DNA from: Sphaerotilus hippei
GTDB lineage: Bacteria; Pseudomonadota; Gammaproteobacteria; Burkholderiales; Burkholderiaceae_C
Assembly (NCBI RefSeq): GCF_003201595.1
Contig: NZ_QJJS01000002.1
Coordinates: 124,001-188,000 of the forward strand
Length of the DNA: 64,000 nt
Direction: 5' to 3'
In this document: positions 51,781-64,000 of the stretch, in pieces
Numbering within the stretch: position 1 is the first letter of the stretch
How the letters are laid out: each line of letters begins with the position of its first letter
Made by a program: the position numbers and the translations under genes
Notes under the pieces: generated by a model
The model's database searches: none
The model's input: the letters and a program-made list of their open reading frames with translations, nothing else
What the model was told of the DNA's origin: nothing

Positions 51781-52821
<1,041 letters not shown>

Positions 52822-52841
52822 TCGCATCCTCGTGATGCACG

Positions 52842-52876
52842 AAGGGCTGGGTGCGGTGTCGCACCAGCCCTTTTTT
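52842..52876 (+). terminator. Attenuating terminator between pstS and pstC
   Basis: AAGGGCTGG (52842-52850) with GTGC/GCAC inner stem and CAGCCC followed by TTTTTT (52871-52876). One G is bulged on the left arm. A partial terminator here explains why the binding protein is usually made in excess of the permeases. Confidence 0.8.
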
Positions 52877-52892
52877 ACGACCCGGAGGCACT

Positions 52893-53909
52893 GTGGCTGC
52901 TACCCTTCCTGCATCAACGCAGGACAAGACTATGAAACCATCCGAGCGCACCTCGGGATCGGGCGGCCCGCGCGCGCCTGTTCGTGCACCCTGGGCCGAT
53001 CCGCTGTTCGCCTTCCTGGCCCAGGCCGCGGCCTGGCTGACGCTGGCCCTGCTGGCGGGCATCATCGTCTCGCTGGTGATCGGGGCGATGCCCGCGATCC
53101 GCGAGTACGGCCTGTCCTTCCTGTGGCGGGCCGAGTGGAATCCGCCGGAGGACAAGTACGGCGGCCTGGTGATGATCTACGGCACGCTGATGACCTCGTT
53201 CATCGCGCTGCTGATCGCCGTGCCGGTGAGCTTCGGCATCGCGCTGTTCCTGACCGAGCTTTCCCCCAAGTGGCTCAAGCAGCCGCTGGGCACCGCCATC
53301 GAGCTGCTGGCGGCCGTGCCGTCCATCGTCTACGGCATGTGGGGCCTGCTGGTGTTCGGGCCGCTGCTGGCCGAATACGTGCAGGCGCCGCTGATGACGG
53401 CCTTCCGGGGCGTGCCCTTCTTCGGCGAGCTGTTCTCGGGCCCGCCGGTGGGCATCGGCCTGCTGTCGGCCGGCATCATCCTGGCGATCATGATCATCCC
53501 GTTCATCGCCTCCGTGATGCGTGATGTCTTCGAGGTCACGCCGCCGATGCTCAAGGAGAGCGCCTACGGCCTGGGCTCGACCACCTGGGAGGTGGTCTAC
53601 AAGGTCGTGCTGCCCTACACCAAGGCCGGCGTGGTCGGCGGCATCATGCTCGGCCTGGGCCGTGCGCTGGGCGAGACCATGGCCGTCACCTTCGTGATCG
53701 GCAACATGAACCAGCTGTCGTCGCTGTCGCTGTTCGAGGCGGCCAACAGCATCACGTCGGCCCTGGCCAACGAGTTTGCCGAAGCGGGTGAAGGCCTGCA
53801 CCAGGCTTCGCTGATCTACCTGGGCCTCGTGCTGTTCTTCATCACATTCGTCGTGCTGGCGCTGTCCAAGGTGCTGCTGGCGCAACTCAAGAAGGGCGAG
53901 GGTCGTTGA
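52893..53909 (+). CDS. pstC: Phosphate ABC transporter permease PstC
   Basis: One of two integral-membrane subunits of the PstSCAB transporter. The product is 338 residues from GTG 52893, which has GGAGG (52884-52888) four bases before it; ATG 52932 (325 residues) with AGGA at 52921 is a rival start. Six or so helices are predicted, with the EAA-type loop [20 protein letters not shown] and the [17 protein letters not shown] region. It overlaps pstA. Confidence 0.93.
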
Positions 53910-54772
53910 TGACGAGCGCAACTCTGCTGGCATCGCGCGTGGCGATGCACCGCAAACGCAAGGTGGTCAACGCCATCGCGCTGATGATGTCGCTGGCCGC
54001 GATGGCCTTCGGCCTGGTCTGGCTGATCTGGATCCTGTTCGAGACCGTGCGACTGGGCCTGGGCGGCATCTCGCTGGCGCTGTTCACCGAGATGACGCCG
54101 CCCCCGATGGAAGAGGGCGGGCTGGCCAACGCGATCTTCGGCTCGCTGCTGATGGTCGGCGCAGCCACCCTGATCGGCACGCCGATCGGCGTGCTGGCCG
54201 GGGTCTACCTGGCCGAGTACGGCCAGGCCAACTGGCTGGGCCGGGTGACCCGTTTCATCAACGACATCCTGCTGGCGGCGCCGTCGATCGTGATCGGCCT
54301 GTTCATCTACTCGATCTGGGTGTCGCGCCAGAAGTCCTTCTCCGGTTTCGCCGGCGTGCTGGCGCTCGCGCTGATCGTCATCCCGGTGGTCATCCGCACC
54401 ACCGAGAACATGCTCAGCCTGATCCCCAACGCGCTGCGCGAGGCCGCCTACGCGCTGGGCACGCCGAAGTGGAAGGTCATCCTGGCCATCACGCTGAAGA
54501 CCGCCCGCGCCGGCGTGATGACCGGCATCCTGCTGGCCATCGCCCGCATCGCCGGTGAGACCGCACCGCTGCTGTTCACCGCGCTGTCCAACCAGTTCTG
54601 GACCTCCAGCCTCGGCGAGCCGATGGCCAGCCTGCCGGTGACCATCTTCAAGTTCGCGATGAGCCCTTACGAGAACTGGCAGAAACTGGCGTGGGCAGGC
54701 GTGTTCCTGATCACCGTGGGTGTGCTGGCGCTGAACATCGTGGCGCGCACCTTCTTCCGCAACAAGCACTGA
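53909..54772 (+). CDS. pstA: Phosphate ABC transporter permease PstA
   Basis: Second membrane subunit, 287 residues, with about six helices. The EAA-type loop is [20 protein letters not shown], and [19 protein letters not shown] follows, a PstA hallmark. ATG 53909 overlaps the pstC stop codon (TGATG); a TTG at 53906 is in frame but less likely. Its stop is 19 bases before pstB. Confidence 0.95.
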
Positions 54773-54791
54773 ATCCCTGCCGAGGCATTCC

Positions 54792-55577
54792 ATGGACACC
54801 AAAGTCAATCTGCCGGTGAGCGAGAAGATCAAGCTCTCGGTCCGCAACCTGAACTTCTACTACGGCCACTTCCATGCGTTGAAGAACATCAACATGGAGC
54901 TGCCCGAGAAGAAGGTCACCGCCTTCATCGGCCCCTCGGGCTGCGGCAAGTCCACGCTGCTGCGCACCTTCAACCGCATGTTCGAGCTCTACCCCGAGCA
55001 GCGTGCCGAAGGCGAGATCCTGCTCGACGGCCAGGACATCCTCAAGAGCAAGGAAGACATCTCGCTGATCCGTGCCCGCGTGGGCATGGTCTTCCAGAAG
55101 CCCACGCCCTTCCCGATGTCGATCTACGACAACATCGCCTTCGGCGTGCGGCTGTTCGAGAGCCTGTCGCGTGCCGAGATGGACGAGCGGGTCGAGTGGG
55201 CCCTGAAGAAGGCCGCGCTCTGGACCGAGGTGAAGGACAAGCTCGACAAGAGCGGCTCGGGCCTGTCGGGTGGCCAGCAGCAGCGCCTGTGCATCGCGCG
55301 CGGCATCGCCATCAAGCCCGAGGTGCTGCTGCTCGACGAGCCCTGCTCGGCGCTGGATCCGATCTCGACGGGCAAGATCGAGGAGCTGATCGACGAGCTC
55401 AAGAGCGACTACACCGTGCTGATCGTGACCCACAACATGCAGCAGGCCGCGCGCAGTTCCGACTACACCGCCTACATGTACCTGGGTGACCTGATCGAGT
55501 TCGGACCGACGTCGGAGCTCTTCATGAAGCCGAAGAAAAAAGAGACGGAAGACTACATCACCGGCCGTTTCGGCTGA
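54792..55577 (+). CDS. pstB: Phosphate ABC transporter ATPase PstB
   Basis: ATPase subunit, 261 residues. Walker A GPSGCGKS at 47-54, the signature [13 protein letters not shown], Walker [14 protein letters not shown], and the switch His in [10 protein letters not shown]. Length and the ENINF-like [13 protein letters not shown] start fit PstB. A two-tier hairpin follows before phoU. Confidence 0.97.
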
Positions 55578-55586
55578 CGTCCGGCA

Positions 55587-55615
55587 GGCCCGCAGCGACG
55601 CGGGTCGTGCGGGCC
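55587..55615 (+). other. Two-tier hairpin between pstB and phoU
   Basis: GGCCCGC (55587-55593) pairs with GCGGGCC (55609-55615), with an inner CGAC/GTCG (55596-55607). No T-run follows. It may stabilise the upstream mRNA or slow transcription to phoU. Confidence 0.55.
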
Positions 55616-55638
55616 ACTCTTCTTGAAGGACTCCTTCC

Positions 55639-56343
55639 ATGGACAAGCATCTCGTCAGCCAGTTCGACAACGAGCTCAACGGCATTTCCACCCGCGTGCT
55701 CGAAATGGGCGGCATGGTCGAATCCCAGGTGGCCCAGGCCATCTACGCGCTGACCCATTTCAGCAGCGAAACCGCCGCCCAGGTCATCCAGACCGAGGAG
55801 CGTGTCAACCAGATGGAAGTGGAGATCGATCGTGACCTGTCGGGCATCATCGCCCGCCGCCAGCCCACGGCGCGCGACCTGCGCCTGCTGATCGCGATCT
55901 CCAAGACCATCGGCAACCTCGAGCGGGTGGGCGACGAAGCCGCCCGCATCGCCCGCACCGTGCAGCGCCTGGTCAACACCGGCGTCTCCAGCCGCCTGCG
56001 CCTGCCGGTGTCGGACGTGTCCTTCGAGGCGCAGCTGGCCATCGCCTCGCTGCACAAGGCGCTCGACGCGTTCGCGCGCCTGGACGTCAACCAGGCCATC
56101 GCCGTCATCAAGCAGGACAACGAGATCGACGCCGAGTTCGACGGTTTCATGCGCAAGCTCATCACCTACATGATGGAAGACCCGCGCACGATCTCGGCCT
56201 CCATCGACCTGGTCTTCGTGGCCAAGGCGATCGAGCGTGTCGGCGACCACGCGAAGAACCTAGCCGAGCAGATCATCTACATCGTCAAGGGCACCGACGT
56301 GCGTCACAACACGCCCGACACGGTCGAGACGCTGGCCAAGTGA
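55639..56343 (+). CDS. phoU: Phosphate signalling regulator PhoU
   Basis: Helical-bundle protein that links PstSCAB activity to PhoR. The 234-residue product consists of two PhoU repeats (about residues 20-105 and 125-215) with the metal-binding-like acidic motifs ERVGDEAARIA and ERVGDHAKNLAEQ. Start ATG 55639. The order pstB-phoU-phoB-phoR lets transport, signal and response be expressed together. Confidence 0.95.
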   Translation: MDKHLVSQFDNELNGISTRVLEMGGMVESQVAQAIYALTHFSSETAAQVIQTEERVNQMEVEIDRDLSGIIARRQPTARDLRLLIAISKTIGNLERVGDEAARIARTVQRLVNTGVSSRLRLPVSDVSFEAQLAIASLHKALDAFARLDVNQAIAVIKQDNEIDAEFDGFMRKLITYMMEDPRTISASIDLVFVAKAIERVGDHAKNLAEQIIYIVKGTDVRHNTPDTVETLAK

Positions 56344-56375
56344 TTGAAGGAGTTTTCTGTGTCCGGGGTGTCTAA

Positions 56376-57074
56376 ATGAGTCGAGTGCTGGTCGTCGAGG
56401 ACGAGACCGCGATCGCGGAGCTGATCTCCATCAACCTGCGCCATGCCGGCTACGAGGTCACGCTCGCGGCCACGGCCGAACAGGCCCAGGCGGCGGTGGA
56501 TGCGGTGCTGCCCGATCTGGTGCTGCTGGACTGGATGCTGCCCGGCAGCTCCGGCATCGCGCTGGCCCGCCAGTGGCGTGCGGCGGCCCGCACGCGCGAG
56601 CTGCCCATCATCATGCTGACGGCCCGCGCCGAGGAGTCCGACAAGGTCGTGGGCCTCGATGCCGGCGCCGACGACTACCTGACCAAGCCGTTCTCCACCG
56701 GCGAGCTGCTGGCGCGCATCCGTGCGGTGCTGCGCCGCCGTGCGCCCGAGGCGCTCGACAGCGCGGTGGAGGTCGGTCACTTGCGCCTGGACCCGTCGAC
56801 CCGCCGCGTCACCCGCGGGGCCGAGGAGATCCGGGTCGGTCCGACCGAATTCCGCCTGCTGCACTTCTTCATGACCCATCCCGAGCGTGTGCACACCCGT
56901 GCGCAGTTGCTCGACCGGGTCTGGGGTGACCATGTGTTCATCGAGGAGCGCACGGTGGACGTGCACGTCAAGCGCCTGCGCGAGGCGCTGTCGCCGGTGC
57001 AGTGCTCGCAGATGATCGAGACGGTGCGTGGCGCCGGCTATCGACTGACGCAGAGCGGGCTGGCGGCCGCCTGA
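56376..57074 (+). CDS. phoB: Phosphate regulon response regulator PhoB
   Basis: OmpR-family regulator, 232 residues. The receiver domain has DE near residues 9-10 and phospho-acceptor Asp52 (in LLDWMLPG), then the conserved Thr and Lys; the winged-helix DNA-binding domain covers about 130-230 with VGPTEFRLLHFFMTHPERVH and VDVHVKRLREAL. It should act at the Pho box before pstS. phoR follows. Confidence 0.95.
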   Translation: MSRVLVVEDETAIAELISINLRHAGYEVTLAATAEQAQAAVDAVLPDLVLLDWMLPGSSGIALARQWRAAARTRELPIIMLTARAEESDKVVGLDAGADDYLTKPFSTGELLARIRAVLRRRAPEALDSAVEVGHLRLDPSTRRVTRGAEEIRVGPTEFRLLHFFMTHPERVHTRAQLLDRVWGDHVFIEERTVDVHVKRLREALSPVQCSQMIETVRGAGYRLTQSGLAAA

Positions 57075-57102
57075 GCGGGCCGATTTCAGGGGATTGCGGG
57101 CC

Positions 57103-58488
57103 ATGGGCTTGATTGCAGGACGTCTGTTGATGGCGATCTTCCTGATGAGCCTGGGGGCCCTGACGGGTTTCCTGGTCGGTCGGGTGGTCGGTCATGTCTT
57201 CTGGGGGGTGTGGATTGGCGCGGTGCTGGGCGTGTCGCTGGCCCAGGTGCGCGAGACCTACCGCGCGCTGCGCCTGATCCGCTGGCTGCGCGAGGGCGGC
57301 GACGGGCCGGCACCACGTGCCGGCGAGGTCTGGGGCGAGCTCGCCTACCGCTTCGAGCGCCACCTGCAGCTGCGCCAGCGGGAGCTGGTCGGTGAGCGCC
57401 AGCGCCTGGCGCAGTTCCTCTCGGCCATCGAGGCCTCGCCGATCGGCCTGCTGCTGCTCGACGCCGAGGAGCACATCAGCTGGCTCAATCCGGTCGCGGC
57501 CGACCACCTCGGCCTGCACCGCGAACGTGACCTGGGCCAGCGCATCACCAACCTGGTCCGCCATCCTGCCTTCGTGGGGCATCTGCAGCAGGCCGATCCC
57601 GTCGAGCCGGTGAGCATGCTCAACCACCAGAACGGCCTGACGCTGTCGGTGCAGATCCGGCCCTACGGTGACGGGCTGCGCCTGATCCTGACCCAGGACG
57701 TGACCGAGCGCCTGCGCGCCGACGCGATGCGGCGCGACTTTGTGGCCAATGTGTCCCACGAGATCCGCACGCCGCTGACGGTGCTGGCCGGTTTCGTCGA
57801 GACGCTGACCAATCTGCCGCTGACGCCGGTGGAGCGCCAGCGGGTGCTGGCCCTGATGACCCAGCAGACCAACCGCATGCAGTCGCTGGTGTCGGACCTG
57901 CTGACGCTGGCCCAGCTCGAGGGCAGCCCGCGCCCGCCGGCCGACCACTGGGTGCCGGTCAGCGCCTTGCTGCAGCAGGTCGAGCTGGAGGCGCAGGCGC
58001 TGTCCAAGGGCCGCCACCAGCTGGTATTCCACGAGCCCGGCCAGCCCGCCGCGGCCATCGCGGGCCACCAGAGCGAGCTGCTGTCGGCCCTGGCCAATCT
58101 GGTCAGCAACGCGGTGCGCTACACGCCCGACGGGGGCCGCATCGAGGTCCGCTGGCTTGCGGGCAGCACCACGCAGCCTGGCTGCTTCGAGGTCAGGGAC
58201 ACCGGCATCGGCATCGCCCGCGAGCACCTGCCCCGCATCACCGAACGTTTCTACCGCGTCGATGGCAGCCGCTCTCGCGAGACCGGGGGCACGGGCCTGG
58301 GCCTGTCCATCGTCAAGCACGTGCTGCAGCGCCACGGTGCCGAGCTCGAGGTCGACAGCGAGCCGGGCAAGGGCTCGTGCTTCCGCATCGTCGTGCCGGC
58401 CGTGCGCACCCGTTATGTCCAGGCGGTGCCGTCGATCGGCCCGGCCGGGCGCGAGAGCGAACCCGCGACGGCGCTGCGCGGCCGCTGA
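57103..58488 (+). CDS. phoR: Phosphate regulon sensor histidine kinase PhoR
   Basis: Membrane sensor kinase, 461 residues. Two N-terminal helices (about residues 5-22 and 28-50) with almost no periplasmic loop, a PAS-like domain (about 100-200), the HisKA phosphorylation site His219 in SHEIRTPLTVL and the HATPase block with NLVSNAVRYTP, DTGIGIARE and GGTGLGLSIVKHVL. ATG 57103 follows AGGGGA; a TTG at 57094 is less likely. It pairs with PhoB. Confidence 0.95.
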   Translation: MGLIAGRLLMAIFLMSLGALTGFLVGRVVGHVFWGVWIGAVLGVSLAQVRETYRALRLIRWLREGGDGPAPRAGEVWGELAYRFERHLQLRQRELVGERQRLAQFLSAIEASPIGLLLLDAEEHISWLNPVAADHLGLHRERDLGQRITNLVRHPAFVGHLQQADPVEPVSMLNHQNGLTLSVQIRPYGDGLRLILTQDVTERLRADAMRRDFVANVSHEIRTPLTVLAGFVETLTNLPLTPVERQRVLALMTQQTNRMQSLVSDLLTLAQLEGSPRPPADHWVPVSALLQQVELEAQALSKGRHQLVFHEPGQPAAAIAGHQSELLSALANLVSNAVRYTPDGGRIEVRWLAGSTTQPGCFEVRDTGIGIAREHLPRITERFYRVDGSRSRETGGTGLGLSIVKHVLQRHGAELEVDSEPGKGSCFRIVVPAVRTRYVQAVPSIGPAGRESEPATALRGR

Positions 58489-60648: not shown

Positions 60649-61911
60649 TCAACCGCCTCGGCGCATCAGGTCGAAGAACTCGACGTTGTTCTTCGTGGAC
60701 TTCATCTTGCCCAGGATGAACTCCATCGCCTCGATTTCGTCCATCGGATAGAGCAGCTTGCGCAGGATCCAGGTCTTCTGCAGGATCTCCGGCTTGAGCA
60801 GCAGCTCCTCGCGGCGGGTGCCCGACTTGTTGAGCATGATCGACGGGTAGACCCGCTTTTCCGACATGCGGCGATCCAGCTGGATCTCGCAGTTGCCCGT
60901 GCCCTTGAACTCCTCGTAGATCACCTCGTCCATGCGGCTGCCGGTGTCGACCAGCGCCGTGCCGATGATGGTCAGCGAGCCGCCTTCCTCGATGTTGCGG
61001 GCCGCGCCGAAGAAGCGCTTGGGGCGCTGCAGCGCGTTGGCGTCCACGCCACCGGTCAGCACCTTGCCCGACGAGGGCAGCACGTTGTTGTAGGCACGCG
61101 CCAGACGGGTGATCGAGTCCAGCAGGATGACCACGTCCTTCTTCAGCTCGACCAGCCGCTTGGCGCGCTCGATCACCATCTCGGCGACCTGCACGTGACG
61201 GGCGGCGGGCTCGTCGAAGGTGGAGCTGATCACCTCGCCGCGCACGGTGCGCTGCATCTCGGTCACTTCTTCCGGCCGTTCGTCGACCAGCAGCACGATC
61301 AGGTGGGCATCCGGGTGGTTGGCCACGATGGCATGCGCCAGGTGCTGCATCATCACCGTCTTGCCGCTCTTGGGCGGCGCGACGAGCAGTGCCCGCTGGC
61401 CTTTGCCCAGCGGCGCGATCAGGTCGATGATGCGGCTGGTGATGTTTTCTTCACCCTTGACCTCACGCTCGAGCCTGAACTGTTCCGTCGGGAACAGCGG
61501 GGTCAGGTTCTCGAACATGATCTTGTTCTTGCTCTCCTCGGGCGTCAGTTCGTTGACGCGGTCGACCTTGACCAGGGCGAAATACCGCTCGCCATCCTTG
61601 GGCACGCGGACTTCACCTTCGATCATGTCGCCGGTGTGGAGATTGAAGCGGCGAATCTGGCTGGGCGAGAGGTAGATGTCGTCGGTGCTGGCCAGGAAAC
61701 TGGCGTCGGGCGAGCGCAGGAAGCCGAAGCCGTCGGGCAGGACTTCGAGCACGCCGTCACCGAAGATCTGCTCGCCTTGCCGGGCGCGCTTCTTCATGAT
61801 CGCGAACATCAGCTCCTGCTTGCGCATGCGGCCGGTGTTTTCGATCTCGAGCGTCTCCGCCATCTTGACCAGTGCCGAGATGTGTTGCGCCTTGAGTTCG
61901 GAGAGATGCAT
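60649..61911 (-). CDS. rho: Transcription termination factor Rho
   Basis: Hexameric RNA helicase that terminates transcription. The 420-residue protein begins [19 protein letters not shown], with the N-terminal RNA-binding CSD ([15 protein letters not shown]), the Walker A APPKSGKT, Walker B region [20 protein letters not shown] and the Q-loop/R-loop [13 protein letters not shown]. Length fits E. coli (419). It follows trxA in the minus-strand order, conserved in Burkholderiales. Confidence 0.97.
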
Positions 61912-62213: not shown

Positions 62214-62543
62214 TTATAGGTTGGCGTCGATGAATGCGGTCAACTGAACCTTCGACAGGGCGCCAACTTTGGTCGCAGCGAGTTCGCCGCCCTTGAAGAT
62301 CATCAGCGTCGGGATGCCGCGGATGCCGAACTTGGCCGGGACCGCGCGGTTTTCGTCGACGTTCATCTTGGCGACCTGCAGGCGGCCGCCGTAGCTGCCG
62401 GCGATCTCGTCGAGGATCGGCGCGATCATCTTGCAGGGGCCGCACCATTCGGCCCAGTAATCCACCAGAACCGGTTTGTCGGATTGAATCACGTCGGTGT
62501 CGAAGGACGCGTCAGAAATGTGTTTGATGAGGTCGCTGCTCAT
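62214..62543 (-). CDS. trxA: Thioredoxin
   Basis: Redox protein with the WCGPC active site (Cys34, Cys37). The 109-residue product begins [19 protein letters not shown] and has [40 protein letters not shown] and FKGGE. Start ATG 62543; a longer upstream frame has no homology. It reduces ribonucleotide reductase and other targets. trxA-rho linkage is common. Confidence 0.97.
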
Positions 62544-62799
62544 GGCAAATCCGTGGGAGGTCACAACCATCTCGTCAAATCGACGGTTCGATGGGCTCAC
62601 GTATTTTGGCATGAACCATCCGGCCCGGCAGGAACGGGCCCGCTGCGCCTGGCTATGGTGGTGATAGCCGCGGGCCAATAACGGGGCCTGAGCGGTCCTG
62701 TTCACCGTTTTGATCCGGTCCGCGGTGCGGCACACTGGGGCGCATCGAGAGGGAGTGCGCGTTGCGTTCCTGGCGAATTCGAACTGTCGAGTGCTGCTC
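62544..62799. other. Divergent region between trxA and the kinase/HDOD gene
   Basis: 256 bases hold promoters for trxA (minus) and the kinase-like gene (plus). A GGCTAT/ATAGCC hairpin with 7-base loop is at 62651-62669. I see no consensus promoter pair on either strand. Confidence 0.4.
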
Positions 62800-64000
62800 A
62801 TGGCCGATGCCGTCTACACCGCACCGGGCGTCCTGACGCCTTCTGACCGGAAGCCGGCGGCTGCATTGCGCACCTTCGGCCGGTTTGCCCTGCGGCAGCT
62901 GCTCGGGCGCAGCTCGTTGACGATGGCCTGGCTGGCCCACGACCCCCGCGTGCGCCAGGACGTGCTGCTGATGCTGCCGCGCAAGCCTCCCGCCACGGCC
63001 GGTGCGCTGCGGCTGTGGGCCGAGTCGGTCCAGCGGGCCGGGCGCCTGTCCCATCCCCGCCTGCTGGCGCCCGTCGAGGTGTCGGCCCACGAGGGCTGGC
63101 CTTACCTGGTCTGCGAGCGTTCTGCGGGTGCCGTCACCATGGCCGAGTACCTGTCCGGGCATCGGCCGCCAGCGCCGGCCGAGGTGGTCGACTGGTGCGT
63201 CGACCTGCTGTCGGGCCTGGCCGTGACGCACGAGGCCAATCTGTGCCACGGCGACATCGGCCTGCACAGCGTGGTGATCGATCGGCAGGGGCATCTGGCG
63301 CTGTGGGGGCTGGCGGTGTCCTGCGAGGCGGCGCCCGACGAGATGCCGGGCTCGACGGGCGCACTCGAGCGCCTGCGGGCCCATGCCGAGCGGGATGTCG
63401 CGGCCAGCGGCCTGCTGCTGTTCCAGTGGCTGTCGCGCCAGTCGGCCTTCGACGAACCTGATCTGTCGGTGGCCAGCGCCCGGCTGGGCGAAGACGTCGT
63501 GCGCCTGCCCTTCAATCTGCCCCATCCGGTGCCCGAGGCCTTGCGGGCCATCGTGAACCGCGCCGTCGACCGCCATCCGCGGCGCCGCTATGTCGGTGCC
63601 CGCAGTTTCGAGCGGGCGCTCGACGGCTGGCGCCAGGTCCAGTCCGCCGACAGGGACGGCCCGCTCGCGCTGCTGCTCGACCGCCTGCGCACGGCCGGGC
63701 ATCTGCCGGCCCAGCCCGGCCTGGCTCAGCGTGTGGTCCAGGTCGCGAGGATGGAGAACCGTCGGGTCGACGTGCTCGCGGACCTGGTGCTCCAGGATCC
63801 CGCGCTGTCCTTCGAGCTGCTGCGCATGGTCAACCTGGCCCGGTTCGGGGCGGGCAAGGAAGGGCAGGTCGTCACGGTGCGACGTGCCATCCTGCTGATG
63901 GGCGTGGCGGGGGTGCGCCGTGCCGCCTCGTCGCTGCGGTCCTGGCCCGGGCCGCTGCGGGGCGATGCCGTCGAGGCGATGCAGGCCGGCATGCGGCGCG
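62800..64000 (+). CDS. Degenerate protein-kinase/HDOD fusion protein, 3' end cut by window edge
   Basis: At least 400 residues, open at the window edge. Residues about 25-270 follow a Ser/Thr kinase fold: a glycine-loop-like start ([20 protein letters not shown]), then [12 protein letters not shown] (150-161) in place of HRDxKxxN, and LWGLA (168-172) in place of DFGLA. The VAIK lysine, the catalytic-loop Lys and Asn, and the DFG Asp are missing. From about residue 289 an HDOD domain begins ([17 protein letters not shown] and [20 protein letters not shown]). ATG 62800 lacks a clear ribosome-binding site; GTG 62755 is a rival. Likely a signalling scaffold. Confidence 0.8.

Follow-up and report, generated by a model that had tools for sequence, protein, structure and literature searches.

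A pseudokinase fused to an HDOD domain in Sphaerotilus hippei and its relation to active kinase-HDOD paralogues

Results

A kinase-like gene at the edge of the analysed region

The DNA analysed here, referred to as the window, is a 64,000-nt stretch of the Sphaerotilus hippei genome (contig NZ_QJJS01000002.1, positions 124,001 to 188,000). An open reading frame that starts with the ATG at position 62800 (the in-frame GTG at 62755 is a possible alternative start) remains open up to the window end, and the parent contig carries the frame on to G000:C2:188590, followed by a stop codon. The product is a 597-aa protein, P0001. A first-pass annotation made from the window sequence described this frame as a pseudokinase fused to an HDOD domain that continues past the window edge; in the complete protein, the HDOD domain indeed extends to residue 499. 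The features of the locus are as follows, with the short clade being the group of 51 related proteins, P0001 included, that is defined below.

62800..64000, + strand: pseudokinase-HDOD gene of 597 codons (its 3' end, 590 coding bases plus the stop codon, is past the window at G000:C2:188001-188593)
62872..63633, + strand: protein-kinase fold, residues 25-278 (Pfam, PDB phmmer, structure model, and structural comparison)
62971..62973, + strand: M58, at the position of the beta3 (VAIK) Lys (alignment with relatives)
63247..63270, + strand: catalytic-loop equivalent HGDIGLHS, residues 150-157 (D152 kept, Lys replaced by G154, Asn by S157)
63307..63315, + strand: DFG equivalent G170-L171-A172 (alignment with relatives)
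63394..63396, + strand: alphaF Asp D199, kept (Asp in 47/51 and Glu in 4/51 short-clade proteins)
63703..64000, + strand: N-terminal part of HDOD, residues 302 onward (the Pfam match extends to residue 499, past the window)
62214..62543, − strand: thioredoxin gene (named by eye), divergent neighbour
60649..61911, − strand: rho gene (named by eye), next divergent neighbour

The divergent trxA-rho neighbourhood is found beside 15 of the 51 short-clade genes, including all eight that were fetched from the genus of the window. No sigma-70-like promoter or terminator was seen in the 62400-62900 region. Downstream of the pseudokinase-HDOD gene lies a 273-aa frame on the − strand (L002:4794-5615) that has no Pfam match above cut-off. 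Elsewhere in the window (51781-58488), there is what looks like a run of phosphate uptake and sensing genes (pstSCAB, phoU, phoB, and phoR; named by eye).

P0001 combines a kinase fold with an HDOD domain

The HDOD assignment is clear from Pfam (PF08668, residues 302-499, E=5.5e-17, 62.3 bits against a gathering score of 22.9). The Pfam kinase model scores 24.7 bits with the whole protein and 27.1 bits with its N-terminal half, both below the cut-off of 31.7; a phmmer search of the PDB returned an S. aureus Ser/Thr kinase as the best match (4.5e-13, residues 28-274). Structure prediction, which had been proposed in the first-pass annotation, was carried out for the whole protein with an AlphaFold input of 42 aligned sequences of both the short and the long type. 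The resulting model (mean pLDDT 90.6, pTM 0.83) shows the elements of the kinase N-lobe and C-lobe, although the segment that links the DFG equivalent to alphaF is short; the HDOD half that comes next is entirely helical. Judged from sequence and predicted structure together, the N-terminal half adopts a Hanks-type (eukaryotic-type) protein kinase fold.

The best 50 VIA-align rows listed for the P0001 model are kinases or kinase homologues (Z 18.9-22.7); since kinase chains fill these rows, the absence of HDOD structures among them is uninformative about the fold of the HDOD half. The top rows belong to the Mycobacterium tuberculosis pseudokinase MviN (Rv3910), with Z of 22.7 (rmsd 4.6, 236 residues) and 22.5 (rmsd 2.6, 226-227 residues). 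The active kinase PknA is tied with MviN within 1 Z (Z 22.2, rmsd 4.0, 242 residues), PknB is next at 21.4, and the first Foldseek row is S. aureus Stk1. For the active paralogue of the long type described below (pLDDT 80.5, pTM 0.42), the best structural match is PknB (Z 33.4, rmsd 2.0 over 256 residues, 36% identity), and the absence of MviN from the best 50 rows listed for it carries no weight.

The likeness to MviN brings up the possibility that P0001 is a phosphorylated docking hub, comparable to MviN for PknB and FhaA: another Ser/Thr kinase would modify the tail, to which an adaptor would then bind, a mechanism described for MviN in the available sections of PMC12599244. The last ~17 residues of P0001, which include Ser/Thr, are poorly ordered in the model (pLDDT about 45-50), and there are six other kinase-region matches in the same genome. 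However, the stretch past position 560 ranges from 17 to 95 residues across the short clade, and we regard such a role, which is drawn by analogy, as unlikely.

At the position that we take to be that of the HD metal dyad, P0001 has Q428-H429; in the short clade, the first residue is Gln in 50/51 proteins and the second is Asn in 35/51. With the dyad replaced, the HDOD half would not be an HD-GYP or HD phosphohydrolase.

Short and long kinase-HDOD proteins form two clades

We collected 95 kinase-HDOD frames (E<=1e-20) from 61 loci, 60 of them fetched and one being the window's own locus, L002. A tree based on HDOD columns only, which was built by a quick method with SH-aLRT support in place of bootstrap, split 51 short from 44 long proteins (SH-aLRT 99). 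Since the kinase columns were left out, kinase decay could not have driven this split. When 16 further proteins were added, the 51 short proteins were again found on one side of a branch (SH-aLRT 99). One short gene, at L113:4262-6251 (G092), is broken into two reading frames near the activation segment, through either an assembly error or a real break, and its two fragments were left out of the set.

Homologues with normal kinase motifs, which the first-pass annotation had held to count against its reading, do not occur in the short clade, but they make up nearly all of its sister: the full K-E-D-K-N-D-G set is present in 43/44 long proteins. The exception, L092:6551-8866 (G254), is a decayed second tandem copy that lies behind an intact kinase-HDOD-GAF gene, has HGH for HRD, and keeps the GAF match; it may have become a pseudokinase separately, or it may be a side branch. 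A Pfam scan of five long-type proteins, namely L092:6551 and four with intact motifs, gave a GAF match at E<=0.1 in each, in addition to kinase and HDOD. The score passes the Pfam cut-off in L064 only; L108 and L092:3923 narrowly miss it, L092:6551 falls further short, and L111 scores least (16.7 of 22.4 bits). In the three short-type proteins scanned, GAF was not found at E<=0.1. The median length of the activation segment is 38 residues in the long clade versus 30 in the short one.

At every locus that holds both types (32/32), the long gene is located directly downstream of the short one on the same strand, and the two clades branch in similar order on the HDOD tree, as judged by eye. Two intact long-type kinase-HDOD genes in tandem, which are sisters on the tree and thus a duplication without decay, were found in G049 (L109:4151-6670 and L109:6640-9090). 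In 24 genomes from other families, no match was stronger than 2.2e-43; the full-length relatives shown from these families keep the beta3 Lys, the HxD Asp, and DFG, and the five included in the tree form one clade. Relatives outside the family that are of the intact type and form one clade would fit a duplication within the family.

The nucleotide- and metal-binding residues are lost in the short clade

The residues of P0001 at the kinase motif positions are M58 (beta3 Lys), S76 (alphaC Glu), H150-G151-D152 (HRD), G154 and S157 (loop Lys and Asn), and G170-L171-A172 (DFG). The first-pass annotation was right that the VAIK lysine is missing and that Ser stands in place of the catalytic-loop Asn. 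Its reading of HGDIG for HRDxK is also accurate as written, but the catalytic Asp itself is retained; the DFG motif is lost as it had proposed, while the WGL named as its replacement is one residue out of register. Of the beta3 Lys, HRD Asp, and DFG Asp, P0001 thus has only the second, and it would not be a catalytically active protein kinase.

The same holds across the clade. Neither the beta3 Lys nor the DFG Asp is found in any of the 51 proteins, which bears out the pseudokinase assignment: the former position is occupied by Cys, Thr, Leu, Val, Met, Ala, or Ser and the latter by Gly, Ala, or Pro in 51/51. The loop Lys (position 154) is replaced by Gln or Gly in 48/51, and the loop-end Asn is present in only 3/51. 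The HRD Asp is retained in 49/51 proteins and missing in L090 and L073; in the former (L090:6046-8547, G116), the kinase half has no Pfam kinase match.

A displaced Lys of the WNK type in the glycine loop was not found, as position 41, which is presumably the corresponding site, is Thr or Ser in 48/51. Another glycine-loop position, 37, is Lys or Arg in 47/51 short proteins. R61, located at the end of beta3 three residues past the Lys position, is found in 50/51 short versus 12/44 long proteins and is a candidate compensating residue. At the position of the DFG Gly, there is Glu in 19/51 short proteins, 16 of which have Lys37 as well. These features, reminiscent of POMK, together with the HRD Asp that is also kept in DLHK pseudokinases (according to the accessible part of PMC12599244), raise the question of whether nucleotide binding or other chemistry is maintained through a rebuilt pocket, and the basic residue at position 37 may leave room for a nucleotide-binding variant. 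Yet there is free variation at the positions of the beta3 Lys, the alphaC Glu, and the catalytic-loop Asn, the DFG Asp is replaced in every member, P0001 has A172 and not Glu, and position 37 is basic in 22/44 long proteins too. A rebuilt pocket therefore seems improbable to us.

The fold core is conserved under relaxed overall constraint

Mean entropy at ten catalytic or nucleotide-binding positions is 1.66 bits in the short clade versus 0.16 bits in the long clade, while at fifteen fold-core positions it is 0.15 versus 0.30 bits. Both site sets were picked by hand, the core set after the alignment had been seen, and D152 belongs to both, so that these values serve as an illustration and not as a test. 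Within the short clade, variability is the same in the kinase half (1.69 bits) as in the HDOD half (1.66 bits), and each half exceeds its long-clade counterpart (1.43 and 1.41 bits, respectively), i.e., the short clade is under relaxed constraint overall. At 22 positions, a residue that is at least 90% conserved in the short clade occurs in less than 40% of long proteins; these include R61, R268, E339, and H438. Position 339 is Glu in 48/51 short versus Lys in 43/44 long proteins, and the position of H438 is Tyr in 43/44 long proteins.

For the closest pair of short genes (L062/L065, for which no active partner was found), dN/dS is 0.072 in the kinase half and 0.098 in the HDOD half; for the next closest pair (L100/L097), the values are 0.217 and 0.432. 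Distant pairs gave values from 0.3 to above 1, which we do not trust since synonymous sites are seemingly saturated or skewed.

The loss of catalytic residues, the further erosion in L090, the split gene of L113, and the higher variability compared to the sister clade could be taken to mean that the short gene is a decaying relic of a duplicated kinase. This reading is already disfavoured by the conserved fold core, by the dN/dS values of the two closest pairs, and by the uninterrupted frames in the genus of the window, and we consider it very improbable. All 13 genomes of this genus keep the pseudokinase, with open frames of 606-708 aa from stop to stop. Because these frames cover residues 24-577, the single TGA flagged in each of four genomes (G001, G005, G006, and G010) is located at the end of the match.

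The active partner is missing from many genomes that carry the pseudokinase

In an even draw of 399 genomes of the same family, 183 had a match at E<=1e-28 and 216 did not, which indicates that the function is dispensable. The short type was assigned to 137 genomes from 47 of 141 genera (best E<=1e-70), and the best match was of the other type in 46 genomes. The cut for the short type was set by hand, with genus g153 set aside, as the best match there is an intact one (verified for a single genome, G254). The survey scored three candidates per genome and included many draft assemblies, so single genomes are possibly misfiled.

A second family match was present in 103 of the 137 carrier genomes and absent from 34. 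As a second gene could have been missed with three candidates per genome, 30 of the 34 apparently solo genomes (all except G219, G243, G361, and G418) were searched again with the long protein. In 29 of them, there was no intact kinase-HDOD-GAF gene, and G423 contains the start of one, cut at a contig end. In G109, only 1 kb separates the short gene from the end of its contig, and the neighbour of this gene may be missing from the assembly. A full-length active partner was likewise found in none of the 13 genomes of the window's genus when they were searched with the long protein.

Instead of an intact partner, some genomes carry a kinase-less HDOD-GAF gene. In the window's genus, it was found elsewhere in the genome in 6/13 genomes, including that of the window, with matches to the long protein beginning at residues 255-279. 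In the other 7/13, there was no match at E<=1e-10; two of these seven genomes come from assemblies that are only 68% and 83% complete. The gene of the window's own genome (L114:4543-6150; G000:C6, − strand), an apparent counterpart of the C-terminal half of the active paralogue, adjoins regulator-like and pyrD-like genes (named by eye). In all five genomes of genus g58, a kinase-less HDOD-GAF gene is located apart from the short gene, and no intact partner was found. Among the 24 genomes of this search, which include those of g58, G089 also has such a gene, G109 has one broken by stops, and the rest have none at E<=1e-35. A Pfam GAF match was obtained for L114 (below cut-off) and not for L121, in which the region was assigned by alignment to the long protein.

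The kinase-less HDOD-GAF proteins fall on the long side of the HDOD tree in three groups: the window's genus (g1) with G089; g58; and G032 with G021. The simpler reading is that the live kinase was lost in several lineages, although the tree itself is silent on loss versus gain; kinase loss would be least sure for the g1 group, which has a long stem at an open fork. In G015, a long-type protein (L049:247-3147) has GAF and HDOD with a kinase region not recognized by Pfam at E<=0.01, by its sequence a case of independent kinase decay. Beyond the family survey, the single match from a contig search of named close relatives was a distant kinase in a Verrucomicrobia bin, and plasmid sequences yielded no match at E<=1e-15.

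These data bear on whether P0001 acts chiefly as an allosteric partner, a dead copy that would form a heterodimer with the neighbouring active kinase and switch it on or off. The gene order at the 32 shared loci, the similar branching of the two clades, and the second family match in most carriers all speak for such a role. It is at odds with the lack of an intact partner in 29 of the 30 rechecked solo carriers, in the window's genus, and in g58, and it may be the ancestral role and not the present one in the window's genus. We see it as a serious possibility that falls short of being probable.

Comparison with known pseudokinases and HDOD proteins

The closest relative in architecture is the active kinase-HDOD-GAF paralogue, which shares the kinase-HDOD order, forms the sister clade, and is the downstream gene at all shared loci; it differs by the intact motif set, a longer C-terminal region that matches GAF, and a longer activation segment. 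We take the kinase-HDOD architecture to be already present in sequence databases; no report of a pseudokinase-HDOD fusion was found in the open-licence PMC papers searched.

The bacterial pseudokinase families listed in the available text of PMC12599244 are ActPs1-3, GLW, CP1, DYD, and DLHK. MviN (Rv3910), a member of ActPs3, resembles P0001 in being a pseudokinase with a shortened activation loop and in providing the top structural rows. ActPs3 members are described there as mainly actinobacterial, often membrane-linked, and with canonical motifs completely degraded, whereas here the HRD Asp is kept in 49/51 proteins and the partner domain is HDOD; by sequence, the short clade would therefore lie outside ActPs3. 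DLHK pseudokinases, according to the same text, are primarily proteobacterial and keep the HRD Asp while the beta3 Lys and DFG are degraded, a pattern shared by the short clade. A Pseudomonas aeruginosa DLHK member is tabled with AVLT/Hrdlrpas/GFG, and its loop also ends in s. Compared by description only, DLHK proteins differ from the short clade in their conserved loop-end Asn and in linked helicase domains in place of HDOD. Further marks of the DLHK family are its sequence kinship and three arginines in the pocket. As far as that text defines them, DLHK is nearest in motif pattern and ActPs3/MviN nearest in fold, with neither definition matched in full. The other families described there are more distant. 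GLW pseudokinases have GLW for HRD, where P0001 has HGD. CP1 proteins have a linked COG3899 domain, whereas Pfam finds in P0001 the kinase, HDOD, and one chance-level match, as judged by residue coverage. DYD proteins have Arg for the beta3 Lys and a DYD motif; there is no Arg at that position in 51/51 short proteins, and P0001 has GLA.

HDOD modules occur in the signalling proteins SadB, HdpA, GsmR, and ZpdA, where they are described as non-catalytic (PMC6543031 and PMC12607878, in the portions available); the domain is said to lack catalysis in the former and is tied to metals in the latter. In SadB, HDOD is combined with a YbaK-like domain, in ZpdA it is combined with EAL, and those portions describe no kinase fold for HDOD proteins. 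SadB is reported to bind c-di-GMP, the binding domain not being specified in the available part of PMC6543031. The link between HDOD and motility invoked in the first-pass annotation holds for SadB and GsmR, according to the same part, but nothing at this locus points to it.

Discussion

The putative role of ligand sensor or scaffold suggested in the first-pass annotation is plausible. In our opinion, P0001 is rather probably a non-catalytic two-domain signalling adaptor that started out as a duplicate working alongside an active kinase, its mechanism being deduced from the features described above. It couples a kinase fold that lacks the ATP- and Mg-binding residues and keeps its structural core with an HDOD domain in which the HD metal dyad is replaced. 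Tandem duplication of an intact kinase-HDOD gene with a GAF-like C-terminal region may have given rise to the pseudokinase-HDOD gene, whose product would first have served as a partner of the live kinase, with contacts most likely both between the kinase domains and between the HDOD domains. Of its two lobes, the pseudokinase could read a partner, a phosphosite, or a ligand, and the HDOD lobe could relay this state to a target further downstream. For the former partner, the live kinase-HDOD-GAF protein is the best candidate; in the window's genus, its place may now be taken by the HDOD-GAF protein or by a different kinase.

Since genomes in which no active partner was found still have the pseudokinase, an HDOD-mediated interaction, rather than phosphotransfer by a neighbour, is probably its essential output. 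The conserved HRD Asp, which pure scaffolding does not demand, speaks against the adaptor reading, and the further erosion of the kinase half in some lineages (L090 and L073) indicates that the kinase lobe is not indispensable everywhere. The lack of a match in 216 of the 399 family genomes and the relaxed constraint on both halves of the short clade weigh against this reading as well. The adaptor reading and the rivals considered above overlap, and their probabilities are not exclusive.

A bolder version of the adaptor reading, which we put forward tentatively and regard as rather doubtful, is that the live kinase-HDOD-GAF and the dead kinase-HDOD proteins, born in tandem, signal through an HDOD-HDOD heterocomplex, and that lineages repeatedly drop the live kinase domain while the dead one and both HDOD domains are kept. 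If this were true, the kinase fold would end as a phosphorylation-independent sensor. The mechanistic role of HDOD was called not established in 2019 (PMC6543031, available part). The clade contains natural controls in the form of genomes with the live/dead pair, genomes with the dead protein and a kinase-less HDOD-GAF protein, and genomes with the dead protein alone. A comparison of these three genome types asks what a kinase fold incapable of phosphorylation does, and what HDOD does.
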